Origin: Nitrospirota bacterium
GTDB lineage: Bacteria > NPL-UPA2 > JAADIA01
Direction: 5' to 3'
Assembly (NCBI GenBank): GCA_013151555.1
Contig: JAADIA010000097.1
Span: 1 to 42,160 of the forward strand
Length of the DNA: 42,160 nucleotides
Both the position numbers and the translations under genes were made by a program. This document shows positions 3,545-40,325 of this stretch, in pieces (position 1 is the stretch's first letter; each line of letters begins with the position of its first letter). Below the pieces are notes generated by a model, which made no database searches, was not told the origin of the DNA, and was given only the letters and a program-made list of their open reading frames with translations.

Positions 3545-3773
3545 GCACATCACTTAGTGAAACTAAGTGATCAGTGCGAATTAACTCCGCTGCTTAAGGT
3601 GGAAATTGTCGTAGAGAATTTCCCCTTTGTCTAAGCAAGTGAGTATGCACATCATCCGCCTCAGGCGGATAATCAGTGCGAATTAACTCCGCCGCTTAAG
3701 GTGGAAATTGTCGTAGAGAATTTCCCCTTGTCTAAGCAAGTGAGTATGCACATCATCCGCCTAAGGCAGACGA
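3545..3773. repeat. Tandem ~102-bp hairpin repeat, two copies plus a partial third
   Basis: The unit from 3571 recurs at 3673, a period of 102 bases, with only a few differences. Each unit holds a long hairpin (gcttaagg...ctaagc, 3592-3636 and 3694-3737, with ggaaatt/aatttcc inner arms) and ends with gagtatgcacatcat leading into a short hairpin. The preceding partial copy has gagcacatcac with a different terminal hairpin (cttagt-gaa-actaag). The terminal hairpins are therefore unrelated in sequence but equivalent in position. This is the main content of the 369-base gap 3527-3895. The remainder, 3774-3895, shows no gene or recognisable element. Confidence 0.8.
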
Positions 3774-5244: not shown

Positions 5245-5283
5245 TGTTTGCAACCTGTAACAAGTTAGCGCCCTTCGGGCGAA

Positions 5284-5417
5284 CAGGCACTAAGGCACTA
5301 AGGCACAAAGGCACTAAGTTTTTTAAAAAGAGGTAAAATTTATTTTTTGCATTTCTTTCTTTGTGCCTTTGTGCCTTTGTGCCTCTATGCCTTTGTACTT
5401 TTGTCACTTTGCGCCTC
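5284..5417. repeat. Intergenic inverted repeat of the word AAGGCACA
   Basis: The accB-accC gap has four copies of aggcac(t/a)a on the left (5285-5318) and five ttgtgcct-like words on the right (5358-5416). Together they could form a long imperfect hairpin. The 8-base word (AAGGCACA)n reads open in all three frames, which explains the apparent 61-codon reading frame here (VQRHRGTKAQRH). I do not consider that a gene. The same family recurs at 28076-28126 and 29240-29284. Confidence 0.75.
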
Positions 5418-5421
5418 ATCT

Positions 5422-5874
5422 TTAAAGTGGTTCTACCATAAACAACACTTGTCCAAACTCCACCGGATGCCCATTCTCTCTTAGTATTTTCACAACCCGG
5501 CCCTTGACTTCAGATTTTATCTCATTCATTAACTTCATAGCTTCAATAATACAGATTACCTGACCTTCTTCTATCTCATCTCCCTCTTCTACAAAAGGCT
5601 TAGCCTCCGGCGAGGGAGCCCGGTAGAATGTCCCTACCATGGGGGAAGCAATTTCTGTCAGCCTTTTTTCGGGAGATTCCTTCTTCTCTCTCTCCGGGGA
5701 AACAGATTCAACCATCTTCGGAACTTCCCCTCCGAGAGATTGAGACAAAGCAGTGACCTCAGGAGAAAAGCCCTTCTTCAACTTAATTCTCATCCCTTCC
5801 CTCTCCAAATCAAGTTCACTGATATCGGCCTTTTCAAAAATAGTGATAATCTCTCTTAACTCTTTAAGATTCAT
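5422..5874 (-). CDS. accB: Biotin carboxyl carrier protein AccB
   Basis: AccB carries the covalently attached biotin that shuttles carboxyl groups in acetyl-CoA carboxylase. The 150-residue protein has an N-terminal AccB region ([27 protein letters not shown]), a Pro/Glu/Ser-rich linker, and a C-terminal biotinyl domain. That domain has the canonical EAMKLMNEI motif, with the biotinylated lysine about 34 residues from the end. The start at 5874 is chosen because AAGGGG lies 6 nt upstream and the product matches the family N-terminus; the longer TTG start at 5892 is less likely. It lies between efp and accC, the classic order. Translation is in the same direction as efp, with a 162-base repeat-filled gap. 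Confidence 0.96.
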
Positions 5875-5910
5875 TACCATCCCCTTAATCAACAGTTGTT
5901 GAATATAGTA

Positions 5911-9442: not shown

Positions 9443-10008
9443 TTTACTGCTTTCTCCTTCTTTCGTTCTTTAGAGACAAAGGTGCTCACTTCCATTCTTA
9501 TATTATGTTGCAAAAAATTCTCGGGATTGGAACTTATCTGAATATTGCTTACCTCAATAAAGCGGTCCAGGTTCTCCAGTTTGTTGATGAACCGACCCAG
9601 TTCGTGATATCCCCCTTCCATCTGTAGATTCCACTGAAAGCGGCGATAATGTTTTCTCTCCTCAGGCGGCTTTTCTTCAACACTGACAAATTTAATCTGA
9701 GATTCTGCGGCCACCTTGTCCAATTCTCTGAACAGTTGAGGCACCTCTTTCCTCTCCGGAAGTTTATCCTCATAGAACTCTATCCGCCTCTCCAAAAGCT
9801 TAATTTCCTTTTCATACCTCTGCCTATTATCTATCAGGCTTCTGGCCTCCGCCAGCTTAGTCCTCTCCTCAGCCAACTGCCCTGATATTTTTTTCAACGA
9901 GTTCACTTGGGATATTATGAGAAAGGAGAAAAGAAAAACCAGCAGAATAAAGACCCCGGCTACAGCAATCATCTCCTTCCGTCCTAAAGCAAACGGGGCA
10001 AGCTTCAT
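9439..10008 (-). CDS. pilO: Pilus inner-membrane assembly protein PilO
   Basis: PilO is a bitopic inner-membrane protein that pairs with PilN in the alignment complex. It has a short cytoplasmic N-terminus, one transmembrane helix (about residues 15-34, VAGVFILLVFLFSFLIISQV) and a coiled-coil stretch (about 36-80, rich in Lys/Glu/Leu). The periplasmic ferredoxin-like domain includes VPQLFRELDKVAAESQIKFVS and MEGGYHELGRFINKLENLDRF, a PilO hallmark. Its 189 residues are within the normal range. The start overlaps the end of pilN by 4 nt with a strong AAGGAGGGG ribosome site, and its end overlaps pilP. Confidence 0.93.
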   Translation of the reverse strand: MKLAPFALGRKEMIAVAGVFILLVFLFSFLIISQVNSLKKISGQLAEERTKLAEARSLIDNRQRYEKEIKLLERRIEFYEDKLPERKEVPQLFRELDKVAAESQIKFVSVEEKPPEERKHYRRFQWNLQMEGGYHELGRFINKLENLDRFIEVSNIQISSNPENFLQHNIRMEVSTFVSKERKKEKAVK

Positions 10009-10682
10009 CTCCCCTCCTTAAACCGGCATCGCAACTCAAAATACATAGCCTCTACTCCTCCACTCTGCCTCCAGCGAAGGGAGCCATACTGCTGGATACT
10101 TGTGAAATCCCCGTAGAAGGAAGGGTCATTTTTCAGCTTATCCATAAAATCTCCTACCAACTTTAGCCCTCCCGTTTCCCCCGTGGTAGAAGCAGCCACT
10201 CCTTTAATAACTAAAAACTTTCCGGTTGTCTTATTTGTTGTCTTATTTGTTATCTTCTTTGTTGTTTTCTGTGTTGTCTCCCTATTACCGGATTTATCCT
10301 GCTCCGACTTTCCTTCGATGGACAGTGATGTTAACCAAATTCGGGGAAGGACAAGATTGCTTAACCGGTTAAGTTTCTTCGCCCAGAGTATCCGGTTATC
10401 CATCAACTTCTTAATAATGGCCATCCTCTTTTTTAATTTCTCTTCCTCTTTCTTGCGGATAGCTATTTTCTCACTCTCCAGTTTTATCTGCTCTATTGAC
10501 TCTTTCGTTTTCCGGAGACTTCCCTTCTGCATTCTAACACCAACTGCCAGTCCAACGGTAGTTAGAAACAAGAGCAGCAAGAGCCCCCCACCTATAGCTA
10601 TAAACATAGTGGGGGGCAACCGCATTTCCTTCTTCCTTTTTTTCTGAGTGGAAGGAAGAAGATTTATCTCGATCATTTTCAC
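10005..10682 (-). CDS. pilN: Pilus inner-membrane assembly protein PilN
   Basis: PilN opens with MKMIEINLLPSTQKK; the INLLP motif is the segment that docks on PilM. A transmembrane helix (about residues 27-49) follows, then a coiled coil and a periplasmic domain. The domain contains LSNLVLPRIWLTSLSIEG and, near the end, LVGDFMDKLKNDPSFYGDF. Between the two halves of the periplasmic domain (about residues 132-151) is an unusual Thr/Lys/Asn run (TTQKTTKKITNKTTNKTTGK), encoded by a degenerate short repeat. The start is a GTG overlapping the pilM stop (GTGA), with an in-frame ATG two codons later. The 225 residues make it somewhat longer than typical, which the run explains. Confidence 0.92.
   Translation of the reverse strand: MKMIEINLLPSTQKKRKKEMRLPPTMFIAIGGGLLLLLFLTTVGLAVGVRMQKGSLRKTKESIEQIKLESEKIAIRKKEEEKLKKRMAIIKKLMDNRILWAKKLNRLSNLVLPRIWLTSLSIEGKSEQDKSGNRETTQKTTKKITNKTTNKTTGKFLVIKGVAASTTGETGGLKLVGDFMDKLKNDPSFYGDFTSIQQYGSLRWRQSGGVEAMYFELRCRFKEGR
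10225..10275. repeat. Degenerate short tandem repeat inside pilN
   Basis: Repeats of ttgtcttatttgt and related words on the plus strand encode the Thr/Lys-rich PilN linker. The copies are imperfect and in frame. Confidence 0.55.
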
Positions 10683-20131: not shown

Positions 20132-21823
20132 CTAATCTGAAGTAACTCTCAAGACCTCCTCAAGGGAGGTTATCCCGGACTTTATTTTTTCTATCCCATT
20201 CTCCTGCAAAGTCTTCATTCCCGCTTTCCGGGCAGCTTCTTTGATTCTATCGGCCGATGCTCCCTCAATCACCAAATTACTTATCTCTTCGTTCATCTCC
20301 AAAACCTCCAGGATAGCCACCCGACCAAAATAACCGGTCTTGCTGCAATTCCGGCAACCTTTCCCCCGAAAAATGAGGGAGTTCTTCAGTCCCATTCTTT
20401 CCCGGACTTCGGCCGGAACCTCATGGACCTCTTTGCACCGGGGACATATCTTCCGGACCAACCTTTGAGCAGCTACCATGATAATCGAAGAGGAAATGAG
20501 AAAGGGTTCCATACCCATATCCATCAGCCGGGTCATTGCTCCCGGAGCATCGTTAGTGTGCAGAGTACTGAAGATAATCTGTCCCGTTAAAGCTGCCTTG
20601 ATAGCAATATCGGCCGTTTCCTTATCCCTTATCTCTCCAATCATAATGACATCCGGGCTCTGACGGAGAAGCGAGCGCAGACCGTTGGCAAAGGTTAAAC
20701 CAATCTCCGGTTTAACCTGAACCTGAGTTAATCCTTCCACCTGATATTCGACAGGGTCCTCGATGGTTATAATATTTCTATCCGGCGTATTAAGTTGATT
20801 TAATACAGAGTAAAGCGTAGTCGATTTTCCGCTTCCCGTAGGACCGGTGACCAGAATCATCCCGTAAGGTCTGGCCATGGACTCTTGAAACTTTCTTGTG
20901 GTATCCGGCTCAAAACCCAACTTATCCAGTCCAATGTTGAGATTATCCTTATCCAGAGCGCGGAGCACTATTTTCTCTCCGAACCCAATAGGAAGTAAAG
21001 AAACCCGATAGTCAATTTCTTTACCCTGCAATCTGACCTTGAATCGCCCGTCCTGAGGCACCCGGTGTTCGGCAATATCCAGACCGGCCATAATTTTCAG
21101 GCGGGCAATGATGGCTCCCTGCATCTGCTTGGGAGGAGAAACAATCTCCTGCAAAACCCCATCTACCCGACAACGCACCCTTAAAGAATTCCGGTAAGGT
21201 TCAACATGAATATCACTGGCCCTTCTCTTCAGAGCCTCCATCAAGATCAAATTTACCACCTTGATGACGGGGACTTCTTCTGTCTCTGTTAAAAGCTCTA
21301 AAAAACCGGCCTCTTTCTCTCTCCTCATCACCTGAAGGTCCGGATCTTCAACCTCCTCAAAAATTTTGTCCATGCTGGTCTTAGAGCCATAATACCGGTC
21401 AAGGGCATCCTTGATATCCCTCTCTGTGCTGATCACCGGTTCTATTTTATAACCCGTGATCATTTTAATATCATCTATAGCAAAAACATTAAGAGGGTCT
21501 GCCATGGCTGCAGTGAGAAACCGGCCCAGGCAAGAAACAGGAAACAGGTGATAATACCGGGCCATCGATTCGGGAACGATATTAACTACCTTAGGATCCA
21601 CCTGATACCTGGTCAGGTTTATAGGAGGAATCCCTAATTCCTTTCCCAAACAGGCTATGAGATCATCTTCCCGGACATAACCTTTTTCGACCAGAATATG
21701 ACTCAGGCGATGGCCCTCTTGACGCTGGATAGCAAGAGCCTGCCCTAACTCCTCTTTAGTCAGAAGCTTTCCTTCAACGAGAATATCATTCAGTCTTTTT
21801 TTCGGAGATTTAAGTATGGCCAT
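20132..21823 (-). CDS. pilB: Type IV pilus extension ATPase PilB (copy 1)
   Basis: PilB powers pilus assembly. The order is an N-terminal MshEN-type domain (about 1-140: RLNDILVEGKLLTKEELGQAL, then LSHILVEKGYVREDDLIACL), an N2 region (about 185-300) and the ATPase domain. The ATPase domain carries Walker A GPTGSGKSTT (~327), the Asp box TIEDPVEYQVEG, Walker B SPDVIMIGEIRD and the His box TLHTNDAPG. A zinc-binding set of cysteines (CPRC, then CRNC) follows near 460-505. Its 563 residues are normal. The gene follows the second pilB by only 3 bases, so the two are co-translated. Either copy could be the main motor; intact motifs give no reason to call either inactive. Confidence 0.95.
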   Translation of the reverse strand: MAILKSPKKRLNDILVEGKLLTKEELGQALAIQRQEGHRLSHILVEKGYVREDDLIACLGKELGIPPINLTRYQVDPKVVNIVPESMARYYHLFPVSCLGRFLTAAMADPLNVFAIDDIKMITGYKIEPVISTERDIKDALDRYYGSKTSMDKIFEEVEDPDLQVMRREKEAGFLELLTETEEVPVIKVVNLILMEALKRRASDIHVEPYRNSLRVRCRVDGVLQEIVSPPKQMQGAIIARLKIMAGLDIAEHRVPQDGRFKVRLQGKEIDYRVSLLPIGFGEKIVLRALDKDNLNIGLDKLGFEPDTTRKFQESMARPYGMILVTGPTGSGKSTTLYSVLNQLNTPDRNIITIEDPVEYQVEGLTQVQVKPEIGLTFANGLRSLLRQSPDVIMIGEIRDKETADIAIKAALTGQIIFSTLHTNDAPGAMTRLMDMGMEPFLISSSIIMVAAQRLVRKICPRCKEVHEVPAEVRERMGLKNSLIFRGKGCRNCSKTGYFGRVAILEVLEMNEEISNLVIEGASADRIKEAARKAGMKTLQENGIEKIKSGITSLEEVLRVTSD

Positions 21824-21826
21824 CTT

Positions 21827-23539
21827 TCAGCCCTCATATTCCCCTGTTACTCTTAATACTTCTTCTACCGTCGTCTGACCGGCCAGTACTTTTTCCAGAC
21901 CGTTCTCCCTCAATGTTCTCATCCCTAACTTCCGGGCCAAATTTTTAACCTGGTTGGTAGAGACCCGGGTCATAATCAGCTCCTTCATTTCCGGTCTTAG
22001 CGGCAGGACTTCAATAATCCCGATGCGGCCCCGGTAGCCGGTATTATTACATTGCTTACATCCCTTTCCCCGGGAGAAGACCACTTCTTTCCGGCCCTCA
22101 GGAAGAGACAAGTCCAGTTTTCTAATTATCTCCGGAGAGGCAGTATATGATTCTTTACACTCCGGACAAACCTTCCGCATCAATCGCTGAGCAGTTACCA
22201 TAATAACCGAGGAAGCAATAAGAAAGGGTTCGGCTCCCATGTCAATTAAACGGACAATAGCCCCGGGAGCCGTGGTAGTATGGAGACTGCTTAACATCAG
22301 GTGACCGGTAAGTGCAGCCTTTATTCCCACGTCAAGAGTCTCATAATCTCTCATCTCTCCTACCATGATGACATCCGGGTCCTGTCTCAGGATAGAACGA
22401 AGAACATTAGAGAAAGTCAACCCCATCTGGTTCTTCACCGTAACCTGGTTTATCCCTGCCAGCTCATATTCTACGGGATCCTCAACGGTAACCAGATTCA
22501 GTCCCGGGTCGTTCACATATTTCAAAATCGAATAGAGAGTAGTCGTTTTTCCACAACCCGTAGGACCACAAACGAGAATCATTCCGTGCGGACGCCGGGA
22601 ACATTTCTTCAGTTCCTGAAGAGGCTCCTCTTCAAATCCCAACTCATCTATATCAAGCTTAAGAGCGCTCTTATCCAGCACTCGAATGGCTACCTTCTCT
22701 CCAAAGGTAGAGGGTATCACAGAAACACGGAAATCTATCTCTCTCCCTTCCAGACTTATCCTGAACCGTCCATCCTGAGGTAGTCGGCGCTCGGCAATGT
22801 CCAACTCAGATACCACTTTAACGCGGGAGACAAGGGCCATATGCATCGATTTCGGGGGAGAAGGAACCTCATATAAGATCCCATCCACCCGATAACGGAT
22901 TCTCATCGTCTCTTCCCCGGGTTCAACCAAAATATCGCTGGCTTTTTGCTTAACGGCTTCAGCTAGAATCAGGTTTACTGCTCTTACTATAGGGGTATCT
23001 TCCACCGCTCTGAGGACATCGGCTTCCCTGATATCCTCTTCTACTTTCTCTACCAACTCCACTTTTTCTTCCCCGACCCCCTGAAGAAGAACTTCCAGGT
23101 TATTGCCGGAATAATACTGGTTAATAGCTTTCTCTATCTCTTTCTCCGTGCTGATAATCGGCGTCAGGTTATAACCGGTAAGAAGTTTTATATCATCCAT
23201 AGCCAGGACATTAAGAGGATCAGCCATAGCCACAGTGAGGGTCTTGTTCAGGCGAGATAGAGAGATAAGTTGATAATGGCGGGCTACCTGCTCGGGAATG
23301 ATACTCACTATCTCAGGGTCCATCCGGAACCTCTCCAGATTTATGAGAGGAAGGCCCAACTGTTCTCCCAGGCAAGCGGTCAGTTTTCTCTCATCCACAT
23401 ACCCTAACCTGATGAGGATCTGGCTCAGGCGTCCTCCTTCCTTCCCCTGAACCTCGAGGGCTTGCTCCAGTTGTTCCTCGGTCAGCAACTTTCCCTCGAT
23501 AATAATTTCGCTCAACTGCCTCTTCACCAATTTAACCAT
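21827..23539 (-). CDS. pilB: Type IV pilus extension ATPase PilB (copy 2)
   Basis: This second full-length PilB paralogue (570 residues) lies immediately upstream of copy 1. It has the same order: an MshEN-type domain (QLSEIIIEGKLLTEEQLEQAL, then LSQILIRLGYVDERKLTACL), a variable acidic linker, then Walker A GPTGCGKTTT (~325), TVEDPVEYELAG, DPDVIMVGEMRD and SLHTTTAPG. It ends with zinc cysteines CPEC and CKQC. Differences from copy 1 include Thr for Ser after the Walker lysine and Thr for Asn-Asp in the His-box region. The two proteins are divergent throughout, indicating an old duplication. They might form mixed hexamers or drive different pilins; that is inference. Confidence 0.93.
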   Translation of the reverse strand: MVKLVKRQLSEIIIEGKLLTEEQLEQALEVQGKEGGRLSQILIRLGYVDERKLTACLGEQLGLPLINLERFRMDPEIVSIIPEQVARHYQLISLSRLNKTLTVAMADPLNVLAMDDIKLLTGYNLTPIISTEKEIEKAINQYYSGNNLEVLLQGVGEEKVELVEKVEEDIREADVLRAVEDTPIVRAVNLILAEAVKQKASDILVEPGEETMRIRYRVDGILYEVPSPPKSMHMALVSRVKVVSELDIAERRLPQDGRFRISLEGREIDFRVSVIPSTFGEKVAIRVLDKSALKLDIDELGFEEEPLQELKKCSRRPHGMILVCGPTGCGKTTTLYSILKYVNDPGLNLVTVEDPVEYELAGINQVTVKNQMGLTFSNVLRSILRQDPDVIMVGEMRDYETLDVGIKAALTGHLMLSSLHTTTAPGAIVRLIDMGAEPFLIASSVIMVTAQRLMRKVCPECKESYTASPEIIRKLDLSLPEGRKEVVFSRGKGCKQCNNTGYRGRIGIIEVLPLRPEMKELIMTRVSTNQVKNLARKLGMRTLRENGLEKVLAGQTTVEEVLRVTGEYEG

Positions 23540-25718: not shown

Positions 25719-25747
25719 ATTATACCTCAATTATTATAATCTGTCAA
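25719..25747 (-). promoter_or_regulatory. Perfect-consensus promoter before the GGDEF-pilT-pilB-pilB-pilC run
   Basis: On the minus strand, TTGACA (25747-25742), a 17-base spacer and TATAAT (25724-25719) match both hexamers exactly. The -35 overlaps the stop codon of the upstream ligase gene. The spacer ends ATAATTGAGG, similar to the promoters at 11725 and 18645. Confidence 0.85.
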
Positions 25748-27897
25748 AATATCCGGCCTTTCAAAACCTTGAGTTTATCCTTTACTCCTTCCAGGGATGG
25801 ATCTAACTCCAAGGCTTTATTATACTGTTGGATAGCTTCTTTCTTCCTTCCCCTCAGCTCGTATATCCGACCCAATAACATCCGATAGGTGGCTTTGGTA
25901 GGGTAAAGGTCCCGGGCCTTTTCAAATTCCTGAACCGCTTCCTCCATAAGTTCTGCATCCTTACCCCCGGCTTTGTCCCAGAGAACCTTTCCCAGCGTAC
26001 TGTGATAGTGAGGCATAAAAGGGTTGCGTTTGATGGCTTTCCGGTACTGACTTATGGCATCATCCAGCAACCCTTTGCTCTGATAAATCGATCCCAAGCG
26101 GTAGTAGTAAGCTCCCTTTCCGGGATTCATTCTGATAGCCGCATTCACCTGCTCAAGGGCCATATTCACCGAGCCCTGTTTCAGATAAATAAAACTTTGC
26201 TGGAAATATCTTTCCGCCACCAGAGGTTTTTTCACAGTAACCATTAAAAAGGCAATTGTAGAAACTATGACCACCGCTATCACTATTCGGGCAAAAGTAT
26301 TTGTCAACTTATAACTTTTAACTTGCCTGTACCCGCCAGGGTATAACTTACCTCTACTTTCTTCAAATATTACCATCCCCATGAATAACCAGATATAGGT
26401 AGCAATACCCTGAACATAAAGGTCAAAGTCAACCAAGCTATGAATGAGAAAAGCTACCACTCCTATATAAAGCCCCACGACCATACTTTTCTGTAAATTG
26501 CCTGTGTCCACCCGTGCCCGCAAGGGTATAGGAGTAGAACTCAAAGGGGCAAGAATTTCTTCTTCTTGACTGGAGCGTTGGAACCCCGGAACACTTATTA
26601 ATTTATCTTTCACAGTTCTCCAGCCGGCCTTCAGAAAGGCTCCCCAAAGCCAGAGGAAGGAGATTATCCCTAAGATACCGGTTTCTATCCAAATCTGAAG
26701 ATAATTGTTATGGGCCAATTGAGTCTCCTCCGCTCCGACAAGCTTATATTTAGCATAGAGACTACCAAAAGTACCCAGGCCGGAACCAAAAAGAAAATAA
26801 TCCTTGAGCATCGCCAGACCACCCTTCCAGTATTCAACCCGAACTCGAAAGGAGTCCATAAATCCTTGGGAGTTAACATAAGGAAGGATACCGGAGAAGA
26901 GCAAAAGCAGGAATAACCCGATAACGATAAGGAACGATACAAAGAATAAGCGACGATGTTTTCGCCCCAGGATAAAGAAAAGAAAGGCCAGGGAAAAAAT
27001 AAAACTAACCCATCCTCCCTTGGAATAAGTAAAGTACAGGCAGAGCCATCCAATACCCAGAGTCAATCCTAACAATATCCTTCCCCATACCGACTTGACA
27101 TAGAAAAAAAGGACAAGCGCTAAAGGAAGAATGATAATGAGATACCCTGCCAGCGCAGGAGGAAAGACAAAAGTAGAGAAGACTTTGTTTGTTTCCAGCC
27201 GCGCCAGGAAATTGGGAGGTAACCGGCCGATATCATGCATCCGGAGCATCTGTCGCGTTTGCTCCAGACCCCAATAATGTTGATAGATACCATAGAGGCT
27301 GACCAGGACAGCAACTATCAGCAGTAAAGGAAGGAGGAGCGAATAAATATTTATATCTTCACCCCCGGCTATCCGGGAGCTTCGGAGAAGAGGAATACTC
27401 ACTATTATGACGACCAGAGCAGGAAATAAAGCTAAGGGTAAGGGCATTCCGGTGTTGTTCAACCAGACGGCCCCGGCCAGAGCTACAGTCAAACTCAAGG
27501 AGAAAATCAGGACCGTTGCCTGGCGACGCGTCAACCTTTCCGGCAGATTATTAATTATCAGAAAATAAAGTGCCGGGTAACTGAAGAATTGATAAAGCTG
27601 ATTGAAACTAACCGCCTTGTTAACGGAATTAAATAGAGAAATGGTCAAAGAAAGAAGAAAGAGAAAAATAGGGATATCAAGCGGAGTCCGACGAAAGACA
27701 AATTCACCTTTCACAATCATCCTCAGAAACCAGACAGCCAGAAGGAAAAGAATGAGAATCTGAGAATAAGTATTCGACCAGCTCCAGGTAATTCCCGAGA
27801 CGAGCGGTCGAAAGAAAATGATAACCAGCAACCCCCATAAGATGATGAGCGAAGCAGATTTTTCTACCCAGCAATCGTTTTTATCCATTGCTTTCAT
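25744..27897 (-). CDS. O-antigen ligase/polymerase-like membrane protein with TPR tail
   Basis: The product is a multi-pass membrane protein with about a dozen hydrophobic helices. The Wzy/WaaL-type core includes YFTYSKGGWVSFIFSL and a large periplasmic loop with GSGLGTFGSLYAKY...AHNNYLQIWIETGILG, the conserved His/Asn region of this family. Three or four C-terminal TPRs follow (AYYYRLGSIYQSKGLLDDAI onward). This architecture occurs in polysaccharide ligases and in PglL-type pilin O-oligosaccharyltransferases. ATG at 27897 is chosen; an upstream TTG at 27921 is possible. Two short palindromic modules (26302-26349 and 26497-26531) lie in frame in the C-terminal membrane portion. The promoter of the next gene overlaps its stop. 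Confidence 0.82.
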   Translation of the reverse strand: MKAMDKNDCWVEKSASLIILWGLLVIIFFRPLVSGITWSWSNTYSQILILFLLAVWFLRMIVKGEFVFRRTPLDIPIFLFLLSLTISLFNSVNKAVSFNQLYQFFSYPALYFLIINNLPERLTRRQATVLIFSLSLTVALAGAVWLNNTGMPLPLALFPALVVIIVSIPLLRSSRIAGGEDINIYSLLLPLLLIVAVLVSLYGIYQHYWGLEQTRQMLRMHDIGRLPPNFLARLETNKVFSTFVFPPALAGYLIIILPLALVLFFYVKSVWGRILLGLTLGIGWLCLYFTYSKGGWVSFIFSLAFLFFILGRKHRRLFFVSFLIVIGLFLLLLFSGILPYVNSQGFMDSFRVRVEYWKGGLAMLKDYFLFGSGLGTFGSLYAKYKLVGAEETQLAHNNYLQIWIETGILGIISFLWLWGAFLKAGWRTVKDKLISVPGFQRSSQEEEILAPLSSTPIPLRARVDTGNLQKSMVVGLYIGVVAFLIHSLVDFDLYVQGIATYIWLFMGMVIFEESRGKLYPGGYRQVKSYKLTNTFARIVIAVVIVSTIAFLMVTVKKPLVAERYFQQSFIYLKQGSVNMALEQVNAAIRMNPGKGAYYYRLGSIYQSKGLLDDAISQYRKAIKRNPFMPHYHSTLGKVLWDKAGGKDAELMEEAVQEFEKARDLYPTKATYRMLLGRIYELRGRKKEAIQQYNKALELDPSLEGVKDKLKVLKGRIF
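26302..26349. repeat. Repeat module inside the ligase gene (AACTTAT words plus hairpin)
   Basis: The plus strand reads acttataacttttaacttg, then cctgtacccgccagggtata, containing a taccc-gcca-gggta hairpin. It encodes LYPGGYRQVKSYKLTN, a loop between two membrane helices. The AACTTAT words match the intergenic repeat at 40271-40325. Confidence 0.5.
26497..26531. repeat. Second related module inside the ligase gene
   Basis: The sequence attgcctgtgtccacccgtg followed by cccgcaagggtata shares the gcctgt...ccgc-a-gggtata core with the module at 26302. It is in frame and encodes IPLRARVDTGN in a predicted loop. Confidence 0.4.
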
Positions 27898-27954
27898 AAA
27901 GTTGACTTTCTTTAGATACAAACAGGTATAAAGGCATAAAGCTTAAATAAATTC

Positions 27955-28069
27955 GAAGCACGAAATTCGAAATTCGAAACAAATTTAAATAACCAAAATA
28001 CGAAGGACCAAAACCATGTTTAAAATTTTGAGAATTAGAATTTCGAATTTGTTTCGAATTTCGTGCTTC
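27955..28069. repeat. Intergenic inverted repeat of the word CGAAATT, extending into a gene
   Basis: Perfect 18-base arms (gaagcacgaaattcgaaa at 27955-27972 and its complement at 28052-28069) enclose further cgaaatt words. The right arm is translated as the last residues (RSTKFETNSKF) of the WecA-like protein, whose stop is at 28035. Confidence 0.8.
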
Positions 28070-29225
28070 TCATCTTGTCACTTTGTGTCTCTGTGCCTTT
28101 ATGCCTTTGTATCTTTGTGCCTTCTATTTTAACTTTATTCCCCCTCCCGGCAATTACTTCCAGAAAAACAATGAGGCTAAAAATAACTAAAGCTTGAACC
28201 AGGATCACGATAGCCCCCATCAGTTTGGCTCCCCGAAGGAGAGTGGCATTAATACCTACAGAGAAGGCGACTAAATAAATGAAGATTACCGCTTGTTTAT
28301 GACTCATTCCTAAACCAATCAGGCGATGAGAAAAATGTCTCTTATCAGCTACAAAGATGGAAGCGCCCTTTTTTCTCCTAAGGAAGATAACGGAGAGCGT
28401 GTCAAAGATAGGAACACCCAAGATAAGGAGAGGCATGACCACCGGGAGGAAAGTCGGACTATCTTGGGTATAGAAGGTATTAAGAACTGTGAGGGTGGCC
28501 AGAATAAAGCCAATGAACATGCTTCCGGCATCTCCCATGAAGATAGTAGCCGGTCGGAAATTATAAGGAAGAAAACCGGTCAGGCTCCCGGCAAATATCA
28601 GAAGGATAACACTGACAAAGAGCTGCCCCTGCTGTAAGGCTACCAAGAAAAAGATAAGGGCGGCAATCAAAGCTACTCCTGCAGCTAATCCATCCATATT
28701 ATCCAGAAGATTGAAGGCATTGGTCATCCCTACTACCCAGATGATAGTAATGATAATCGCCAGCCAGGAAGGCAGAAACATAGTTATTTTGATTCCGAAT
28801 AAAACTAAAAGCAGAGCAGCCAGAAGCTGTCCCCCTAATTTCACATAAGGGGAAATTCCTCCTCTACGGTCATCCCATAGTCCGAGAAGGAAGATAATAG
28901 TCCCTCCGGAAAGAATAGCTAATAGCCTGCTTTTCGTAGCCATTACTCCCATCAACCTTCCGGCAATATCCTCAGGCAATAAGTTCATTAACTGCGGGCT
29001 CCGATGTAAAAGAGCTACTATTGCCAGATTAATGATGATGTTCAAAACAAATGCCAGATAGATTGCGGCTCCGCCTAAAAGAGGTTTGGCTTCCAGATGA
29101 AGTTTTCTCTCTTCGGGATTATCCAAAAAAGACCATTTCAAGGCTAACTTTCGAAACAGAGAAGTAAGAAGGAGGGAGAGGACAAAAGAAACAAAGAATA
29201 TATAAAGGTAAACAAAATTCCACAT
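28035..29225 (-). CDS. WecA/TagO/MraY-like polyprenyl-phosphate sugar-1-phosphate transferase
   Basis: This enzyme family transfers a HexNAc-1-phosphate (GlcNAc-1-P in WecA/TagO) to undecaprenyl phosphate, starting glycan synthesis on the cytoplasmic membrane face. About ten transmembrane helices are visible. Catalytic motifs are intact: KPLLGG near 47, FLLGLWDDRRG (Asp-Asp) near 110, NAFNLLDNMDGLAAG, ATIFMGDAGSMFIG, and the His-rich RHFSHRLIGLGMSHK loop that resembles the HIHHRL motif of WecA. The last ~30 residues (from KIEGTKIQRHKGTETQS to the end) are not family sequence; they are translated from two intergenic repeats. The epimerase gene ends 18 bases upstream, so they are co-transcribed. 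Confidence 0.9.
   Translation of the reverse strand: MWNFVYLYIFFVSFVLSLLLTSLFRKLALKWSFLDNPEERKLHLEAKPLLGGAAIYLAFVLNIIINLAIVALLHRSPQLMNLLPEDIAGRLMGVMATKSRLLAILSGGTIIFLLGLWDDRRGGISPYVKLGGQLLAALLLVLFGIKITMFLPSWLAIIITIIWVVGMTNAFNLLDNMDGLAAGVALIAALIFFLVALQQGQLFVSVILLIFAGSLTGFLPYNFRPATIFMGDAGSMFIGFILATLTVLNTFYTQDSPTFLPVVMPLLILGVPIFDTLSVIFLRRKKGASIFVADKRHFSHRLIGLGMSHKQAVIFIYLVAFSVGINATLLRGAKLMGAIVILVQALVIFSLIVFLEVIAGRGNKVKIEGTKIQRHKGTETQSDKMRSTKFETNSKF
28076..28126. repeat. TTTGTGCC repeat translated as the tail of the WecA-like protein
   Basis: The words tgtcactttgtgtctctgtg and cctttatgcctttgtatctt plus tgtgcc on the plus strand correspond on the minus strand to (AAGGCACA)-type repeats. These encode EGTKIQRHKGTETQSDK. 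Confidence 0.7.
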
Positions 29226-29239
29226 GATAACACCCTAAG

Positions 29240-29284
29240 TTTTTTAACTTTGTGCCTCTGTGCCTTTGTGCCTTTGTGCCTCTT
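29240..29284. repeat. TTTGTGCC repeat forming the 3' end of the epimerase gene
   Basis: Four ttgtgcct words lie at the epimerase 3' end, encoding EAQRHKGTEAQS and supplying its stop codon. The repeat continues a few bases into the gap before the WecA-like gene. Confidence 0.75.
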
Positions 29285-30236
29285 TTTTACTTTCAATAAT
29301 TCTTTTAAGCATCTCGTCCAACCTCACCCGAGGTGAATATCCAATTAGATTGCGGATCTTGCTGATATCCGGTACCCGATGTCTCATATCCTCAAAATTA
29401 TTCTCATAAGCCTTTTCATAGGGAACGAAGACTATTTCCGATTGGCTATGAGTTAATTCTTTTATCTTTTCAGCCAGACCATAAATACTAATTCCCTCTT
29501 CGCTTCCTAAATTAAAGATCTCCCCTACCGCTTTCGGATGATTGGTTAGAGAAACGATTGCTTTGATCACATCTGTGACATAGGTAAAACTGCGTGTCTG
29601 CTTACCATCCCCATAGACGGTGAGAGGTTTTCCGGAAAGGGCCTGTTTGACTAAGCGGGGGATGACCATCCCATATCTTCCCGTTTGACGAGGACCGCAG
29701 GTGTTGAAGAGGCGAACGATAGCCACCGGCAATCCTCTTTTCCGGTGATAAGCCAAAGCTAAAAACTCATCCAGGGCTTTAGTACAGGAATAACTCCAGC
29801 GGCTTATCGTTGTTGCTCCCAAAACTCTATCATCATCTTCTTTGAAAAGCCCGTCTTCTTTCTTGCCATAGATCTCAGAAGTAGAGGTAAGCAACACTTT
29901 CTTCTTCTCTCTGCCGGCCAACTCCAAGACTATCTCTGTCCCCCGCACGTTTATCTCCATAGATTTTAAAGGATAATCTATGATAAACTTTACTCCCACT
30001 GCCGCTGCCAAATGATAGATTACCTCACAGTCATCTATAAGTTCTCTCATCTTCTCCTTATTCATAATAGTATCCTGAACGAAGCAAAAACGGGAATTTT
30101 CCCGGAGATGAGAAATGTTTTCCCTCCGTCCCGTAGAGAGGTCGTCCACTACGGTAACTTTATTACCTTCCTTCAAAAGTTCCTCGGCCAGATGCGAGCC
30201 GATAAACCCGGCTCCTCCGGTAATCAAAGCTCTCAT
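29244..30236 (-). CDS. NAD-dependent nucleotide-sugar epimerase/dehydratase
   Basis: This is an extended SDR enzyme: the Rossmann motif is TGGAGFIGSHL at residues 6-16, with VVDDLSTGRREN binding the adenine ribose and YHLAAAVGVK. The catalytic Thr/Ser region is TSTSEIYGKKED, and the Tyr-x-x-x-Lys pair is in YSCTKALDE. Substrate residues are in RLFNTCGPRQTGRYGMVIPR and DGKQTRSFTYVTDV. This sequence set is closest to the UDP-glucuronate decarboxylase/UDP-glucose 4-epimerase group, but the exact substrate is uncertain. The normal end is near RIIESKK; the last dozen residues (EAQRHKGTEAQS) come from an intergenic repeat. It starts one base after the small TPR gene ends. Confidence 0.88.
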   Translation of the reverse strand: MRALITGGAGFIGSHLAEELLKEGNKVTVVDDLSTGRRENISHLRENSRFCFVQDTIMNKEKMRELIDDCEVIYHLAAAVGVKFIIDYPLKSMEINVRGTEIVLELAGREKKKVLLTSTSEIYGKKEDGLFKEDDDRVLGATTISRWSYSCTKALDEFLALAYHRKRGLPVAIVRLFNTCGPRQTGRYGMVIPRLVKQALSGKPLTVYGDGKQTRSFTYVTDVIKAIVSLTNHPKAVGEIFNLGSEEGISIYGLAEKIKELTHSQSEIVFVPYEKAYENNFEDMRHRVPDISKIRNLIGYSPRVRLDEMLKRIIESKKEAQRHKGTEAQS

Positions 30237-40270: not shown

Positions 40271-40325
40271 TAATTGGTTAACTGGTAACTGGCAACTCGT
40301 AACTTATAACTTATAACTCATAACT
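40271..40325. repeat. Intergenic short-word repeat (GGTAACTGGCAACTCGTAACTTAT)
   Basis: The words ggttaactggtaactggcaa and ctcgtaacttataacttata fill the gap between the GT4 and asnB genes and begin at the GT4 stop codon. The AACTTAT word also appears inside the ligase gene at 26302. Confidence 0.6.

Follow-up and report, generated by a model that had tools for sequence, protein, structure and literature searches.

Palindromic repeats that are read in frame have been described in Rickettsia (RPE) and in enterobacteria (RU/ERIC) (PMC2229807, PMC2759123, PMC10969869), and fusions of RU to conserved-domain proteins have been described at C-termini (PMC2759123). In Beggiatoaceae, TAACTGA heptamers sometimes code for protein ends, that of MurG being one example (MacGregor 2015, PMC4679880). 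The amino-acid tandem repeats of Borgs have ORF units that are all multiples of three, and these repeats are nearly always unique to one locus (PMC9879509).

Here we describe a repeat element at the 3' end of a transferase gene in a stretch of 42,160 nucleotides from a Nitrospirota bacterium (contig JAADIA010000097.1 of assembly GCA_013151555.1), referred to below as the window. Like RPE and RU/ERIC, the element is small, palindromic, dispersed and mostly intergenic, and it occurs in frame within otherwise ordinary proteins. Unlike them, it has arms of tandem heptamers and octamers, clusters behind stop codons and affects gene 3' ends only; the comparison drawn here is one of structure and location. 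With the TAACTGA repeats it shares short tandem heptamers, a mostly intergenic location, a patchy occurrence over distant phyla and the occasional coding of protein ends. The units here, however, are AAGGCACA and CGAAATT, whereas the TAACTGA repeats lie mostly upstream of start codons, are direct and hairpin-free, and have a forward unit with stops in all frames. As in Borgs, tandem DNA repeats give rise to protein segments, disordered in Borgs and probably so here, but the units of 8 and 7 bases are not divisible by three and are common to many loci. MITEs and REP-like repeats are likewise non-coding, inverted-repeat, multi-copy and intergenic. The element has the terminal inverted repeats of a MITE. 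A target-site duplication and a transposase with matching ends would further mark a MITE, and a tetranucleotide tag a REP repeat; no constant target duplication was evident by eye in about 10 copies. It is best filed with the in-frame palindromic repeats of the RPE/RU kind: it is dispersed and multi-copy (34 sites) with inverted arms, and it lies in frame in conserved genes and is absent from their orthologues for the transferase, an epimerase, KsgA and ribosomal protein S2, at C-termini only. The novelty lies in how these features are combined: composite hairpins with tandem arms follow closely on stop codons, and they themselves carry the stops that end the tails.

The transferase and its predicted tail

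Based on PF00953 and its translation, the ORF at 28035..29225 (minus strand; 396 aa including the repeat-coded tail) encodes a sugar-phosphate transferase of the PNPT family (WecA/MraY-like). PF00953 (Glycos_transf_4) matches residues 102-248 with an E-value of 3.6e-35 and 121.8 bits, above the gathering cut-off of 27, and MraY is among the nearest solved relatives. The score of 110.1 bits against TIGR02380 (WecA) is below the curated NCBIfam cut-off of 326, and WecA-like is therefore the right wording. An O-antigen ligase/TPR gene lies downstream (25744..27921, minus strand), with the element between the two genes.

The protein ends in VIAGRGNKVKIE followed by GTKIQRHKGTETQSDKMRSTKFETNSKF and the stop. 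Its last 29 residues lie exactly over two arrays, first one of octamers (AAGGCACA) and next one of heptamers (CGAAATT), in agreement with the initial annotation, which had read the end of the protein as pure repeat translation. Translation, arrays and relatives that stop at or before 28124 together delimit the tail with its stop (EGTKIQRHKGTETQSDKMRSTKFETNSKF, 28035..28124, minus strand). The octamer array, which is the gene-side arm of the element, covers 28075..28123 (minus strand; score 63) and is also supported by a whole-genome pattern search, and the heptamer array under the tail covers 28024-28063 (score 39); both scores are from wrap-around alignment to the units. The frame indeed crosses both repeat types and stops in the second, as had been noted: the new TAA (28035..28037, minus strand) lies inside the conserved heptamer core (TTCTAATTCTC) of the heptamer element.

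Homologues had been expected to stop near the repeat boundary, and same-phylum relatives with 57-68% protein identity do so, ending in EVAGSKGNQRE, EVAGRKGNEGKNK, LAVRKNH and EVSKARN; none shares the tail. In a wider set, 66 of 102 homologues end at most 10 residues from position 367. A tail conserved in relatives is rejected, and among the homologues listed no longer tail resembles that of the transferase. Between the corresponding genes of genome G002 there is also an array of octamers and heptamers, which begins behind an intact TAG; the array is absent from this slot in G001 and G004, the closest relatives by transferase protein. This comparison shows that the transferase gene has lost its original stop.

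A composite inverted-repeat element with its own stops

The octamers and heptamers had been taken for two different repeat families. There are two units, but these form nested arms of a single composite inverted-repeat element, because octamer arms flank the heptamer hairpin both here and at several places. At the transferase, the hairpin element occupies 27948..28081 (minus strand; family model R1, E 2.6e-29, 134.6 bits). Its second heptamer arm is at 27949-27979, outside the range of the initial annotation, and two overlapping 18-nt arm pairs are 100% complementary. Opposite 28097-28119 we observed a degenerate outer octamer arm at 27919..27941 (plus strand; inverted pair I1, 83% complementary). 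The hairpin region folds with -42.2 kcal/mol (z -2.74), better than shuffles. Further copies of the hairpin unit, which is about 134 nt long and has CTAATTCYCGAAATTCYAAACATGGTTTTGGTCATTCGTATTTTGGTCATT or a near variant as its core, occur across the genome, and 12 aligned copies have a mean column identity of 80%. Octamer arrays also occur as inverted pairs, for example 5285-5318 with 5344-5416.

Both consensus units are stop-free in all six frames. Among random units, both strands lack stops in 43% of 7-mers and in 39% of 8-mers; this property therefore needs no special explanation, and a special stop-free design of the units is rejected. Stops are instead fixed at particular places in the element: the inner border of the octamers (AAAGTTAA) carries a TAA, a variant unit (AAAGTGAC) a TGA and the heptamer core (TTCTAATTC) another TAA.

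Distribution and placement of the element

The analysis covered one draft genome, of which 825 kb (about 46%) were read directly in stretches and the remainder by model and pattern searches. Arrays numbered 21 in the first sample and 63 in the 825 kb, compared with 0 in order-1 Markov controls in both cases, and a chance origin is thereby rejected. Model R1, built on 12 copies, found 34 sites in this genome, with matches on both strands at one site counted once. There were no R1 sites in three genomes of the closest family, f2 (G001, G003 and G004), and copies are present in G002 and G006. R1 matches were found in 16 of the 193 genomes tested, 13 of them outside the phylum; the more distant matches agree in overall layout and in portions of the core. 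A literature search with the octamer sequence gave nothing relevant. The copy number, the patchy occurrence and the empty relatives suggest that the element is mobile.

Nearly all elements are intergenic, though ORFs cover about 83% of the sampled genome. Octamer elements usually start just behind a stop codon, within 8 nt. Because ORFs were called mechanically, by simple ORF rules, the following numbers are approximate. Eighteen octamer ends face a gene 3' end without overlapping it, and 11 of these are at most 8 nt from the stop; uniform placement within the same intervals would give 3.8, and none of 20,000 simulations reached 11. At gene 5' ends, 0 of 11 are so close, and 37 of 43 elements lie between co-directional genes.

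Repeat-coded tails in other genes

The initial annotation had described the transferase tail and was in this respect incomplete. The frame enters the octamer element in at least seven genes, which are those of the transferase, an epimerase and at least five others, including ksgA, Opp ATPase, rpsB, HIT and ispG. The upstream neighbour of the transferase, an NAD-dependent epimerase/dehydratase ORF (29244..30236, minus strand; 330 aa), ends in IIESKKE followed by the octamer-coded AQRHKGTEAQS, where relatives stop after IIESVKKVR or IIQSVKQE. It reads into a single octamer arm (29248..29281, minus strand), whose inner border AAAGTTAAAAAAC carries the TAA stop of the epimerase. KsgA ends in NVLNYLRNKAQSDKGTQAQSENRKE, gaining NKAQSDKGTQAQSENRKE relative to EFARLSNTLAR and EFARLSNTLSR of its relatives. 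The Opp/Dpp ATPase ends in the octamer-coded TGTKAQSSKGTKKK, as read from this genome alone, and the HIT protein and IspG run 3-4 residues into the array, up to the TGA of the variant unit. An ORF of G002 ends in KKQRHKGTEAQRHRGIKK.

No case in this genome is more striking than rpsB (L262:653-1678; G000 C19, ~20913-21938), the gene of ribosomal protein S2, with about 80 octamer-coded C-terminal residues. One frame is open and the other two have many stops. The predicted tail includes VEDEKEEMVAALTESPSVSGK and AQSDK stretches. S2 proteins of relatives have long, charged, non-repeat tails at the same place; probably, then, a tail that was already free was replaced by the repeat, or the repeat expanded within it.

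Origin of the tails

We consider it likely that the transferase tail goes back to a composite non-coding element at the 3' end of the gene. The element would have arisen or inserted there, and the original stop would have been overrun or shifted out of frame, in the transferase gene as in several others. Translation would then enter the units and, because their consensus is stop-free in six frames, would read through until it halts at a fixed element-borne stop (octamer border, variant unit or heptamer core). The enzyme would thereby gain a short polar C-terminal tail beyond its final conserved stretch, and in this gene the tail is probably tolerated and not selected for. We infer this order of events, and the translation and neutrality of the tail, from comparison of sequences. 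The proposal that repeats became coding is upheld by the translated arrays and by relatives that lack the tail; the further proposal that the repeats themselves removed the stop may be right, but a 1-nt indel would do as well.

The sequence just before the array would allow such an indel. A GGGGG run lies immediately upstream, and GAATAA and AAATAG, both out of frame, are found within 20 nt ahead of the array, so that a 1-nt indel in the run would also explain the tail; other octamer elements begin directly behind stops. It nevertheless appears rather unlikely that an error in sequencing or assembly, or else a real indel of recent date, in this run makes the tail an annotation accident of a gene that stops, or until recently stopped, at GAATAA or AAATAG. 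The protein alignment is in frame up to GRGN, which matches AGRKGN of relatives, and in the epimerase there is no stop at the array boundary in any frame, so that a one-base frameshift does not explain its tail. The same is seen in rpsB, ksgA and Opp, so that tail formation of this kind does take place in the genome, whether or not the transferase case is an error. We regard it as distinctly unlikely that the tails are selected, with charged and probably disordered octamer-coded C termini serving, for example, in binding or stability and the repeats being kept as coding sequence. The single open frame over some 80 residues of rpsB and the charged S2 tails of relatives would fit such a role, but the other tails are short, of unequal length and missing in relatives, and their residues are unconserved in all families tested.

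The elements might, with some doubt on our part, act at the RNA level, as 3' hairpins that stabilise mRNA or serve as processing or attenuation sites between co-transcribed genes, the coding overlap being a by-product. The prevalence of co-directional neighbours, the placement right behind stops and the well-folding nested inverted arms are consistent with this. Covariation in the hairpin alignment is weak, however, with a double change in 1 of 26 pairs; the alignment therefore gives no sign of selection on RNA pairing, and Rfam has no match to the element. An RNA-level role can be compatible with an element whose stop-free units are read as a protein tail, which we prefer as the explanation. 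Tentatively, and at about the same level of doubt, the element may represent an uncharacterised dispersed class that settles just behind stops, bears stops of its own at set internal positions and so repeatedly makes C-terminal tails, even on S2, in several unrelated lineages.

Within a single genome, intergenic repeats have turned into predicted protein tails at many genes; their units of 7 and 8 bases traverse all frames, and gene callers will present such tails as genuine protein sequence. The preference for the first bases behind stops offers a testable clue to the spread of widespread, little-studied repeats, and both translation and tolerance of the S2 tail can be tested directly.

Other repeats

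The window contains a full octamer inverted pair at 5285-5416, 5 nt behind the stop of ORF 5422-5892 (minus strand). Short GC-rich hairpins (e.g. AAGTTAGCGCCCTTCGGGCGAAC) adjoin octamer arrays at window positions 5265-5285 and at L114 13635-13655 and L123 11800-11825; perhaps they belong to another small repeat, or are terminators that serve as sites of insertion. A hairpin of AATTACA-type heptamers at 19982-20121 matches R1 weakly (E 6e-9) and represents a third, perhaps related family. At 40279-40325 there is a TAACTSR-type heptamer array that is like the TAACTGA repeats of Beggiatoaceae. In addition, a 102-bp unit occurs twice in tandem between ORFs at 3570-3767 (96% alike), and a 12-bp tandem repeat (GTTGTCTTATTT, 4.6 copies) lies at 10225-10279 within ORF 10005-10682 (minus strand).
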